Source of the DNA: Candidatus Nitrosotenuis uzonensis
GTDB lineage: Archaea; Thermoproteota; Nitrososphaeria; Nitrososphaerales; Nitrosopumilaceae
NCBI RefSeq assembly: GCF_000723185.1
Contig: NZ_CBTY010000008.1
Location: 296,677 to 360,676, forward strand
DNA: 64,000 nucleotides
Direction: 5' to 3'
The notes below the pieces were generated by a model that saw nothing but the letters and a program-made list of their open reading frames with translations, made no database searches and was not told the origin of the DNA. Of this stretch, positions 27,760 through 30,918 are shown piece by piece. The position numbers were made by a program, and so were the translations under genes. The stretch's first letter is position 1; each line of letters begins with the position of its first letter.

Positions 27760-27810
27760 TGAACAAATCGTCGATAAAACTTAAAAACGCTGCATTTTTG
27801 GAAAAACTCA

Positions 27811-28122
27811 ATGATTAGTATGGGGGAGACAACGGAGGAATTAAGAGTTGCTGAAAAAAGGACAGAACCTTACATATATCATGTCAGAAACGAGCCGGTA
27901 ATGCAGGCTGCACTTGATGTTTTCACTATAATCAACAAGCATGGCAAAGGCATGTTGCTTGCAAAGGGGGGCTCCATTCCAAGTGCTGTTGCCATTGCAA
28001 ACATACTAGTGGAAAAGATGCTAAACAGAGTTTGCACCATAGAGCACATACTTCTTGATTCAGAAAACGAGTTTGGGAAAAGAATGATCTCAACAATAGA
28101 GATTTTAATTGTAAAAAACTAG
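27811..28122 (+). CDS. albA: DNA/RNA-binding protein Alba
   Basis: A 103-residue archaeal chromatin protein. The Alba fold signature is visible as YIYHVRNEPVMQAALDV near residue 22, GKGMLLAKGGSIPSAVAIAN around the DNA-contacting lysines, and the C-terminal STIEILIVKN. The lysine usually acetylated in Sulfolobus Alba is in the N-terminal strand-1 region; here that part reads RTEPYIYH, so the classical K16 is not obvious. The ATG at 27811 lies about 29 nt after acttaaaaac, fitting a leaderless start; the Met at 27820 is an alternative. It overlaps the converging HTH gene by 4 nt. Confidence 0.94.
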   Translation: MISMGETTEELRVAEKRTEPYIYHVRNEPVMQAALDVFTIINKHGKGMLLAKGGSIPSAVAIANILVEKMLNRVCTIEHILLDSENEFGKRMISTIEILIVKN

Positions 28123-28541
28123 TATACGCTGCCTGGCCCTTTTAGCAACATGTTCTCACATTCTTTGCAGATTGCCTCATCTATGTTAGATTCCAGATTG
28201 TGGTGTATCTCGCATATCAATAGACTTGACTTGATATAGTTGCACAAACTAATGAATTTGGCAAGACTTGATGGGGTGTATGCCATATCCGAAGCAAGTC
28301 GCTCGCTTAGCTCCTTTATCATCTGTGATACCTGTTCATCGGCAACAAGTTTTTGGATTAGTTTTGGGTCACCTCTAGTCCCACGTATGTAGTTGCTGAT
28401 TGCAGCTTGAGTTACTCCAAGCATTTTCGATATTTCATCTTCGCGTATCTTGTGCTCTTCTGCTAGTTTTTTTGCCAGTATGGCGCGCAGTGCAGGAATT
28501 AGCGTTTTTGATTCAATCTCGGCAGGCAGTAGCAATAGCAA
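28119..28541 (-). CDS. HTH transcriptional regulator with C-terminal Cys/His cluster
   Basis: A 140-residue protein. Residues 14-55 contain a helix-turn-helix of the Xre/predicted archaeal regulator type (EDEISKMLGVTQAAISNYIRG). The C-terminal part carries CNYIKS, LICEIHHNLES and AICKECENML, a probable metal or redox-sensing cluster. This arrangement resembles a group of archaeal regulators annotated as predicted transcriptional regulators. It is divergent from the asparagine-synthase-like gene across a 187-bp gap that contains an 8-bp-arm palindrome, suggesting control of itself and of that gene. Confidence 0.82.
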   Translation of the reverse strand: MLLLLPAEIESKTLIPALRAILAKKLAEEHKIREDEISKMLGVTQAAISNYIRGTRGDPKLIQKLVADEQVSQMIKELSERLASDMAYTPSSLAKFISLCNYIKSSLLICEIHHNLESNIDEAICKECENMLLKGPGSVY

Positions 28542-28636
28542 AAATCAGCCTACAATATATTTAAAGTTAACATGCACATCAACATTTACAAAATCACACA
28601 CATTATTTTGACAGGATAAATTTAGCTTAAACTAAT

Positions 28637-28659
28637 TTGCATTTACATTCAAAATGCAA
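28637..28659. promoter_or_regulatory. Palindrome TTGCATTT-N7-AAATGCAA in a divergent promoter region
   Basis: A perfect 8-bp inverted repeat with a 7-bp spacer, lying 96 bp upstream of the HTH-gene start at 28541 and 70 bp upstream of the start at 28729. It is a plausible operator for the HTH regulator. A second small palindrome (AAACA-T-TGTTT) follows at 28661-28671, and a TATA-like tttaaat lies close to it. Confidence 0.45.
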
Positions 28660-28728
28660 CAAACATTGTTTTAAATCCAAAGATTGCCAGAACTCAAAAT
28701 TTAATTTCAAATCAATACAGATATCAAT

Positions 28729-29667
28729 ATGAATCAGGTTCTCCAACAGACATACAAAATACTGGAAAATGCCGTCTTAGAATGCAACGCCAAATCCATC
28801 TCACTCTCAGGCGGACTTGATAGTGCAATCATCGCATACTTTCTGCAAGATAAAGGAGTTAGCGCAATATCCGTCATTTCAAAAGACTTTATTGCAAGTG
28901 ACCTAACTTATTGCCAGCTTGCCGCCAAGAGATTCAAAATGCCACTTTCAATCAAGATGTGCCAGATAGATCAGATATACCATGCAATAGAGCAGACGGT
29001 GGAAATACTTGGTAACTTCAATGACATAGAGATAAGAAACAACGTAGTGGCATACCTTGCATTTGATGAAGCAAAGAATCTAGGTTTTGATAGAATAGTC
29101 ACCGGTGACGGGGCAGATGAGATATTTGCAGGGTATAATTTCCTTTTAAATAAAACCGAAAGTGAGCTACAGGTCGAGCTAGACAGAATTAGAAAAATAA
29201 TGCACTTTCCATCTCAAAAGATAGGAAAGGCACTAGGCATAGCTGTAGAGTCCCCTTTCTGTAGCACTAATGTACTCAAATTTGCAAAAACTATTCCTGC
29301 AAACATGCTTGTCGGGGAACACGATGGTAAAAAATATGGCAAGCTGATTTTACGCAAGGTCTTTGAAGATAAAATACCAAAGTCAATAGTTTGGAGAGAG
29401 AAATCACCGATGCAGGAGGGGGCTGGAACTCAAGGGCTGACAGAGTTTTTTGAGCACTCTATTCCAGATCATGTATTTGCTCAAAGGGCAAGGCAGATAA
29501 AAGAAAAGGACAACGTTACAATCAGGACAAAGGAGTCGCTACAATACTATGAGATATTCCGCAAAAACCATGACCCCCCAAGCTCAATTGGAGTTCAAAA
29601 ATGCCCCGACTGCAATGCTGGAATAGAGTCCAGATTTTGTAGGATGTGTGGCAAGTTTCCAGTTTAG
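28729..29667 (+). CDS. Asparagine-synthase-like ATP-pyrophosphatase without glutaminase domain, C-terminal zinc ribbon
   Basis: A 312-residue protein with the PP-loop SGGLDS at residues 27-32 and the AsnB synthase-domain motifs VTGDGADEIFAGYNF and VWREKSPMQEGAG. It starts directly with the synthetase domain; the N-terminal class II glutamine amidotransferase of AsnB is absent, so it must use free ammonia or a partner. The last 25 residues form a zinc ribbon (CPDCNAGIESRFCRMCG) not found in AsnB. It may activate a carboxylate as an acyl-adenylate, perhaps to amidate a small molecule, protein or tRNA; asparagine synthesis is possible but unproven. It is divergent from an HTH regulator. Confidence 0.85.
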   Translation: MNQVLQQTYKILENAVLECNAKSISLSGGLDSAIIAYFLQDKGVSAISVISKDFIASDLTYCQLAAKRFKMPLSIKMCQIDQIYHAIEQTVEILGNFNDIEIRNNVVAYLAFDEAKNLGFDRIVTGDGADEIFAGYNFLLNKTESELQVELDRIRKIMHFPSQKIGKALGIAVESPFCSTNVLKFAKTIPANMLVGEHDGKKYGKLILRKVFEDKIPKSIVWREKSPMQEGAGTQGLTEFFEHSIPDHVFAQRARQIKEKDNVTIRTKESLQYYEIFRKNHDPPSSIGVQKCPDCNAGIESRFCRMCGKFPV

Positions 29668-29810
29668 CTCTTTTTTGCCCATTTTTTGGGTTTTTTCTTA
29701 AAGATTCGTCTGCATCCGTTGCAACAGAAAAAATATTTCTTACTGTCGTATTCGTAGGTAACTGCAAGGCTCTCATCCATTTCGATTCCGCACACAGGAT
29801 CCACGGGCAT
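29664..29810 (-). CDS. YHS-domain microprotein
   Basis: A 48-residue protein that is essentially one YHS domain: it opens MPVDPVCGIEMDESLAVTY, continues KYFFCCNGCRRIF and ends in a Lys-rich tail (KKKPKKWAKKS). YHS domains bind metals such as copper through the Cys of DPVCG and the following CxxxC, and occur in copper ATPases and related proteins. The Met at 29810 is preferred to one five codons earlier because the TATA-like tataaata is centred near 29836, 26 nt upstream. It overlaps the 3' end of the asparagine-synthase-like gene by 4 nt. It may be a metallochaperone. Confidence 0.75.
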   Translation of the reverse strand: MPVDPVCGIEMDESLAVTYEYDSKKYFFCCNGCRRIFKKKPKKWAKKS

Positions 29811-29867
29811 AACTAGACCCGGCATATTTTCTATTTATACACTTGGCTGTACATAGACTCACAGATA

Positions 29868-30818
29868 CTATGCTTCTAACATCACTGTTCGGATATCGTC
29901 TATAGTATCTGCTACCATTATCCTATCTCTTAGTCTAGTGCTTCCCACAAGTCCCTTTGTGAACCTCATTGCCTGCTGTCGTATGTTTGGAAATTTTATG
30001 TTATAGTGTAAGGCATATTCGGCGTACTTGAGAAACATTTCCACTTGGTATCTTGCAGAGTATTCCTGGTATGTGCCAGTCATAATGTACTCGCCAATCT
30101 GCTTGAAAAGAAACGGATTCCCCATGGCCGCCCTGCCAATCATGATATAATCACATCCTGTCTCATCTAGCATCTTTTTTGCAAGTTCCGGACTTGTAAT
30201 ATCACCGTTGCCCACCACTGGCACGTCTACAATTTCTTTTAGCTTTCGTATCAGTGACCAATCAGACTGTCCAGAATAGCCCTGTCTTACAGTTCTTGCA
30301 TGAAGCGTTATCATCTGTATTCCCTCCTCCTGTGCAATTCGTGCTATGTCTTTGAATCTATCCGGGTCGTTGATGCCTGCTCGCATCTTTAGCGTGATGG
30401 GTTTTTTCACAGACGAGACAAGTGTTCGAAATATCTTTCTTGTAAGGTCGTTATTTTGAAGTAGTGCTCCTCCGGCCATCTGCTGTGTTATGTGCGGGGC
30501 GGGACAGCCCATATTGTAGTCAATTATATCAAAGAATGGTTCTACTATTTTCGCTGCCCTTCCAAGTGCATCAAGATCTGAGCCAAACAATTGTATTGAT
30601 ATGGGCCGTTCCTTTTCAGAAAACTCGACAAATTCAGTTATTTTCTTGCCCTCAAGTCTTAGCTGCCTTTCTTTTGCAATTATTGCATGTATGCTTGTAA
30701 GCTCTGTTGCAACAAGACCTGCACCCATCTCCTTGCAAAGCAGCCTCAGTGCTGCATCGCTGACGCCTGCCATGGGAGCCAAAAACGCCTTGCTAGAAAA
30801 TTTTGGTAGGCAGCTCAT
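29868..30818 (-). CDS. dus: tRNA-dihydrouridine synthase
   Basis: Flavin enzyme that reduces uridines in the tRNA D-loop. From the Met at 30818 (MSCLPKFSSKAFLAP) it has 316 residues. The FMN barrel shows LAPMAGVSDAALRLLC, the catalytic Cys in DYNMGCPAPHI, LKMRAGIND, LHARTVRQGYSG, PVVGNGDI and MIGRAAMGNPFLF; the C-terminal helical domain follows. The frame is open seven codons further, but a TATA-like gttttatatt lies about 28 nt before 30818. The family assignment is firm; the position modified is not known. Confidence 0.94.
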   Translation of the reverse strand: MSCLPKFSSKAFLAPMAGVSDAALRLLCKEMGAGLVATELTSIHAIIAKERQLRLEGKKITEFVEFSEKERPISIQLFGSDLDALGRAAKIVEPFFDIIDYNMGCPAPHITQQMAGGALLQNNDLTRKIFRTLVSSVKKPITLKMRAGINDPDRFKDIARIAQEEGIQMITLHARTVRQGYSGQSDWSLIRKLKEIVDVPVVGNGDITSPELAKKMLDETGCDYIMIGRAAMGNPFLFKQIGEYIMTGTYQEYSARYQVEMFLKYAEYALHYNIKFPNIRQQAMRFTKGLVGSTRLRDRIMVADTIDDIRTVMLEA

Positions 30819-30918
30819 GCAGCCTTTCACAGAACGCACAATATAAAACGAATGAGAAAGTTATCCGTTCAGCTCAAACACACTAGAAAAAATAGTCACT
30901 TGGAATCCACATAATACG

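Follow-up and report, generated by a model that had tools for sequence, protein, structure and literature searches.

The window analyzed here, a stretch of 64,000 nucleotides on contig C8 of a 1.64-Mb genome, contains two divergently oriented genes (Table 1). One encodes a putative amide ligase related to asparagine synthase, which we named ASNL, and the other a regulator of the HTH_3 type. In a profile search, ASNL matched the Pfam family Asn_synthase (E 1.3e-29), and no match to a glutaminase or GATase domain was found. The first-pass annotation of this DNA had described just such a pair, a PP-loop synthetase without glutaminase facing an HTH gene, and both descriptions hold. Positions 27811-28122 encode an Alba-like protein (22 bits against a Pfam cut-off of 25), whose gene keeps its place relative to Rpb6 and HTH_3. 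Across the family, the genes are arranged as a putative S25-like gene, Rpb6, Alba-like, HTH and ASNL. No Rfam model matched the region 27800-30900 at gathering thresholds.

Table 1. Coordinates of the genes, active-site motifs and intergenic elements at the ASNL locus.
Feature	Position	Strand	Evidence or remark
HTH_3 regulator, 140 aa, C-terminal Cys/His residues (LICEIHH ... ICKEC)	28119..28541	-	Above the HTH_3 cut-off (E 2.1e-05)
Degenerate form (TTAGCTTAAACTAA) of TAGCT-nn-AGCTA, an operator-like palindrome of relatives	28622..28635		By eye; strict pattern unmatched
Palindrome with 8-bp arms, TTGCATTT-7-AAATGCAA	28637..28659 (28637-28644 / 28652-28659)		Not conserved
ASNL, putative Asn_synthase-like amide ligase, 312 aa	28729..29667	+	Pfam match, predicted structure
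PP-loop SGGLDS, residues 27-32, ATP pyrophosphate binding	28807..28824	+	S27 and D31 in 91/91; role from AsnB/ASNS (PMC6748925)
R103-N104	29035..29040	+	R103 at the position of Arg-339 in human ASNS
TGDGADE, residues 125-131	29101..29121	+	D127 at ASNS Glu-364; D130 and E131 correspond to Asp-367 and Glu-368
K225, corresponding to the essential Lys-466 in ASNS	29401..29403	+	91/91
Zinc-ribbon-like tail C292-x2-C295-x8-C304-x2-C307-G308	29602..29652	+	CxxC-(5 to 14)-CxxCG in 91/91 aligned members

ASNL is no local oddity. It belongs to a large archaeal family and is near-universal in the GTDB family of the window, where it was found at E ≤ 1e-30 in 161 of 171 genomes; the ten genomes without it are all at most 92% complete. 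Among 61 relatives, 54 gave a match, weaker paralogue matches included. At E ≤ 1e-30, a threshold that also lets in some AsnB proteins outside the window's GTDB family, 230 of the 300 genomes of the class were positive, and at E ≤ 1e-38 the phylum sample of 398 genomes gave 174 carriers. Since the family is widespread outside the ammonia oxidizers, ammonia oxidation does not explain it. The earlier description of a synthetase without glutaminase is supported; such a protein must draw its nitrogen from solution or from a partner, as free ammonia, partner-supplied ammonia or an amine.

We also searched the genome for a full-length AsnB. GATase_7 exceeded its cut-off in only two proteins, at other loci, with frames of 590 and 481 aa, which we infer from their size to be GlmS and PurF. 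The remaining Asn_synthase matches comprise a 422-aa protein without GATase (L067), whose neighbors resemble surface-polysaccharide genes as judged by eye, LarE, and an ArgG-like and a QueC-like protein (L069 and L070, assigned by eye). A further match is a second glutaminase-less paralogue of 248 aa without ribbon, which adjoins a purB-like gene on contig C9 (L066:4990-5736); its relatives in other families have frames of 419-480 aa, in which the GATase_7 match is limited to the second half of the domain.

Structural relatives, active site and asparagine supply

Asparagine synthetases are the nearest solved sequences to ASNL in a HMMER alignment. The AlphaFold model of ASNL (mean pLDDT 94.0, pTM 0.90) likewise gave human asparagine synthetase (ASNS) as its top structural match in VIA-align (Z 28.9, rmsd 2.7 over 280 residues). 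Beta-lactam synthetase (Z 27.1) and carbapenam synthetase (Z 25.7) were the next close matches, and the group formed by these two enzymes and the lasso cyclase scored 27.1, 27.0 and 25.7. The first-pass annotation had recommended a structural comparison with beta-lactam and lasso-peptide synthetases. The beta-lactam, carbapenam and lasso peptide enzymes are AsnB-derived ligases that do not use glutamine and are structurally very similar to ASNL. Unlike them, ASNL is not encoded in such a biosynthetic cluster, keeps the AsnB-like acidic cluster and shows no relic of an N-terminal domain.

These matches raise the possibility that ASNL is an ammonia-dependent synthetase for free asparagine, an AsnB that would have shed its glutaminase because its hosts have enough ammonium. 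In its favor, ASNL shares with the synthetase domain of AsnB and human ASNS (EC 6.3.5.4) the fold, the PP-loop, the equivalents of Lys-466, Asp-367 and Glu-368, and the C-terminal helices; the AsnB alignment of its C-terminal part reaches residue 287. To examine residue conservation, we aligned 91 members of the ASNL family and transferred the numbering of human ASNS through the HMMER alignment. In the PP-loop, the serine, G29 and the aspartate are invariant (91/91), and G28 is replaced by Ala in seven members. The residues equivalent to Asp-367, Glu-368 and Lys-466 are likewise invariant, and retention of the first two, which bind the amino group of aspartate in human ASNS, also counts against the role in B12 metabolism proposed below.

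Two further positions argue against asparagine as product. D127, at the place of the catalytic Glu-364, is Asp in all 91 members, whereas E. coli AsnB has Glu there. Position 100, Thr-336 in ASNS and Thr in E. coli AsnB, never keeps this residue: 90 members have Ile, Met or Val, and the last has a gap. In human ASNS, the variants E364A, E364Q and D367A are inactive, and T336I nearly abolishes the glutamine-dependent activity (PMC6748925). In addition, ASNL stays below the cut-offs of both AsnB equivalog models (113.9 against 499 for NF006949 and 80 against 267.1 for TIGR01536).

ASNL further differs from AsnB and ASNS in lacking the class-II glutaminase domain with its Cys-1 and in having gained a tail with four cysteines. 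This tail, the CxxC...CxxC ribbon recognized in the first-pass annotation, occurs in every aligned member, with a spacing of 10 in 76 of 91. It is absent from E. coli AsnB, from the short paralogue of the same genome and from the four AsnB proteins of family f8 that we compared. Zn_Ribbon_1 (PF13240) reached 21.3 bits in one relative, below the cut-off of 25, and gave no match in the window protein. One subgroup in family f25 (e.g. L303, L309-L313) carries SAGTD in place of SGGLD in the PP-loop and has few B12 neighbors; its function has possibly shifted.

We also looked at the asparagine pathway, a check that the earlier annotation had named. GatA, GatB, GatD and GatE exceed their cut-offs in this genome, and model searches found no recognizable AsnRS. 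Two strong class-II Asp/Asn synthetases (L063:1775-3058 and L064:6245-7579, both on contig C8) lie above the cut-off for non-discriminating AspRS and below that for AsnRS; a third match to this synthetase family is weak. One of the two adjoins gatA-gatB, which suggests an AspRS dedicated to tRNA-Asn. Most likely, Asn-tRNA is made by transamidation through AspRS and GatCAB, so that translation would not depend on free asparagine.

Two more observations favor an asparagine synthetase. In family f13, ASNL follows gatB at a distance of 19 to 140 bp in 7/7 genomes, which points to amidation or asparagine. We considered this gatCAB linkage as the mark of an enzyme of the Asn pathway and set the reading aside; in the tree described below, the linkage has a single origin (100/100) within that one family. 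Published reconstructions let the ancestor of the ammonia oxidizers gain an asparagine synthase (EC 6.3.5.4; PMC7603488), a label that may refer to ASNL. Asparagine synthesis also leaves the B12 fusions and operons described in the next section unexplained. On balance, we regard it as an unlikely function of ASNL. The replacement of two ASNS residues throughout the family and the separate Asn route for translation were counted in favor of a role in B12 metabolism.

Cobalamin genes near ASNL in relatives, and CbiP

The genomic context of ASNL was scored for a B12 gene set (cobY, cobS, cobT, cobZ, cobD, cbiB, cbiA, cbiZ, btuC, btuF, corrin methylase and DUF71) within 5 kb. Outside the ammonia-oxidizer clade and family f13, we picked 50 loci from the matches for family spread, including three fusions chosen by frame length. 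At least one B12 gene was present in 26 of these 50 loci, from 16 GTDB families (27 were scored, minus L309 with a weak CobD-like match), and 24 had no convincing one. Within 1 kb, a B12 gene was found at 25 of the 50 loci and at none of 24 control loci. In the window's own clade of ammonia oxidizers, 0 of 34 loci showed a B12 gene near ASNL. The cobalamin link is thus visible only in relatives, and the first-pass annotation missed it. In the open-access literature, we found no paper linking a glutaminase-less AsnB-like protein to cobalamin.

The most complete arrangement is an operon btuF-btuC-(btuD)-ASNL-DUF71-cobD-cbiB-cobZ-cobS-cobY, which occurs at 6/6 loci of that copy in family f27 (btuD was not scored). 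In representative clusters, CobS, CobT, CbiB and CbiA exceed their NCBIfam or Pfam cut-offs, and CobY, CobZ, CobD, BtuF and the Dph6-like proteins remain below. Three genomes from three families carry a CobY-like domain fused ahead of a full ASNL. These fusions match TIGR00454 with E 1e-36 to 1e-41 and the CobY model with E 1e-26 to 1e-34, and the AsnB models cover the remainder. Their CobY score is below the cut-off, as is that of the cobY in the cob operon of the window's own genome.

A DUF71 protein is encoded within 1.3 kb of ASNL at 18 of the 91 loci, and all 18 contain GExGE[YF]H, a signature of the B12 type and not of the Dph6 type. ENGE[FY]H has been described as the mark of the DUF71-B12 group, whose role was assigned to B12 salvage, whereas Dph6 is marked by EGGE/DxE (PMC3541065). 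The same paper treats AsnB-DUF71 fusions of some methanogens, in which an AsnB-like PP-loop domain is joined to a DUF71 PP-loop protein much as ASNL and DUF71 are paired here. The methanogen fusions, however, keep the glutaminase and are discussed there as diphthamide enzymes, whereas ASNL lacks it and has a DUF71 partner of the B12 type. A reviewer's question in that paper was which reaction the AsnB-like domain of the fusions performs.

To place these linkages, we built a tree of ASNL proteins whose outgroup comprised E. coli AsnB, the short paralogue of the window's genome and four AsnB proteins from family f8. It contains three main clades, and the forks at its base are weakly resolved. 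In one clade, 12 of 17 members are B12-linked; the ammonia-oxidizer clade has 34 members, 27 of them HTH-linked; a third clade of 40 members includes 14 B12-linked and 7 gatB-linked ones. Since B12-linked members occur in both main clades other than that of the ammonia oxidizers, the linkage is probably ancestral and would have been lost in the latter.

Known amidation of corrin side chains is carried out by cobyric acid synthase (CbiP/CobQ) and CbiA/CobB, i.e. the type of reaction that we consider for ASNL below. These enzymes combine a P-loop fold of the CbiA type with a class-I glutaminase, whereas ASNL has a PP-loop and would be an unrelated enzyme. A search of the 398 phylum genomes with TIGR00313 gave 112 CbiP matches at E ≤ 1e-60. 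Of these, 73 belong to ammonia oxidizers or close kin; all 73 end before position 304 of the 477 in the model, have frames of 232-329 aa and lack the C-terminal glutaminase half. CbiP of the window's genome (G000:C6:128869-129678; L305:6858-7694) consists of the P-loop domain only, with 278 aa. It sits between a cobD-like gene and cbiB, followed by cobS and cobY, and this stretch leaves no room for a separate glutaminase. Truncated CbiP was also seen at L306, L307 and L308, and an intermediate of 456 aa matching to model position 356 in a genome of family f2 (G170); the deeper relatives in f3 and f13 are full length.

Full-length CbiP was present in 39 genomes of the phylum sample, and ASNL in one of them (G586); of the 286 remaining genomes that are not ammonia oxidizers, 101 have ASNL (Fisher p 4e-6, kinship ignored). 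Both proteins occur together in 7/7 genomes of f13, 2/2 of f3 and one of f45 (G586). We therefore rejected a strict displacement of CbiP by ASNL, and the f13 and f3 genomes indicate that ASNL is no simple replacement for it. Among 15 tested genomes with CbiB and without ASNL, CbiP exceeded its cut-off in 11, was truncated in one and gave no match in three, two of which are only 66-68% complete.

Proposed reaction and its alternatives

From the replaced residues and the gene context in relatives, ASNL probably forms an amide bond in B12 metabolism and not asparagine, in line with the earlier view that its product is not plain asparagine. We give about even chances to the more general proposal that the ASNL family, the window protein included, serves corrinoid metabolism as an ATP-dependent amide ligase that forms AMP. 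The rarity of genomes in the phylum sample that combine full-length CbiP with ASNL also speaks for it. Against it stand the lack of nearby B12 genes in the window's own clade and at 24 of the 50 other loci, the gatB linkage in f13, the genomes of f13 and f3 that have both ASNL and full-length CbiP, and the occurrence of ASNL in family f10, where no CbiB matched. ATP would bind to the PP-loop, as the conserved residues suggest. A corrinoid carboxylate, a substrate proposed from gene context, could then attack the alpha-phosphate to form an acyl-adenylate and pyrophosphate, the latter held by K225 and the loop. Attack of ammonia or an amine on this adenylate would yield the amide, most likely by restoring or completing one on a corrin side chain. 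Paired with the DUF71-B12 PP-loop protein, ASNL would in most B12 clusters take a step between corrinoid uptake by BtuFCD and the CbiB reaction. A structural zinc in the ribbon may serve to dock the substrate or a partner. In ammonia oxidizers, the gene lies outside the cob cluster and yet is kept as a core gene; orthology and the unchanged active site suggest the same role there.

Amidation of a specific corrin side chain by ASNL is a tentative refinement that we rate as rather doubtful. Slightly more doubtful still is a version in which ASNL, running on ammonia through the acyl-adenylate, replaces or aids the glutamine-dependent cobyric acid synthase. If true, ammonium, the energy source of the cell, would directly drive late B12 assembly in ammonia-oxidizing archaea, whose CbiP lacks the glutaminase; these organisms are regarded as a major source of the vitamin in the ocean (PMC4303638). 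A role in B12 metabolism would also correct a misleading reading, since a core gene of ammonia oxidizers that can be read as “asparagine synthase” would belong to a B12-linked family. It would point to a further step in archaeal corrinoid metabolism and give the DUF71-B12 protein an archaeal partner.

It is improbable that ASNL has moved to another amidation in the ammonia oxidizers, one linked to translation or nucleic acids. The Alba-like, Rpb6, S25-like and Dus genes nearby, their conserved order and the complete loss of the B12 linkage in this clade hint at such a move, as does the gatCAB linkage in f13. Yet the active-site residues of the ammonia-oxidizer proteins are those of the B12-linked members, and the neighbors do not accompany ASNL outside the clade.

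Least probable by a little is a CbiB-like or CbiB-helping ligase that joins cobyric acid to its aminopropanol linker, with an amine as nucleophile like the internal amine of beta-lactam synthetase: this would suit the structural matches to the beta-lactam and carbapenam enzymes, the operons with CobD, CbiB and CobY, the CobY fusions and family f10, which carries ASNL without a CbiB match (CbiB is missing from the entries for G218 and G229, and the CbiB matches do not include G257, G277 or G307), but CbiB co-occurs with ASNL in the ammonia oxidizers and in the f27 operon, where a second such ligase would be redundant.

The divergent regulator gene and the intergenic region

The HTH gene lies within 2.3 kb of ASNL at 27 of the 34 loci of the ammonia-oxidizer clade. 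The linkage suggested by the first-pass annotation is therefore real, but its interpretation as a regulated two-gene module is not supported as such. Within the genus, conservation is 89-94% for the HTH protein and 57-66% for ASNL, and HTH homologues also occur in genomes without ASNL; being far more conserved than ASNL, the HTH protein may have wider targets. The palindrome with 8-bp arms quoted in support of the module exists. However, shuffling the intergenic stretch 60 times gave an equally good one in 7 cases, so that it does not exceed chance, and it is absent from all intergenic stretches of relatives tested.

A different, imperfect palindrome, TAGCT-nn-AGCTA, is conserved in 10 of the 22 intergenic stretches compared, and shuffled sequences gave a mean of 0.075; the pattern was picked after inspecting the sequences, and several of the species that carry it are closely related. 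It is placed nearer to ASNL in about half of the relatives. In the intergenic region (28542-28728 in the window) and its counterparts, a conserved TATA-like TTTAAA box lies near the start of the HTH gene in most relatives.
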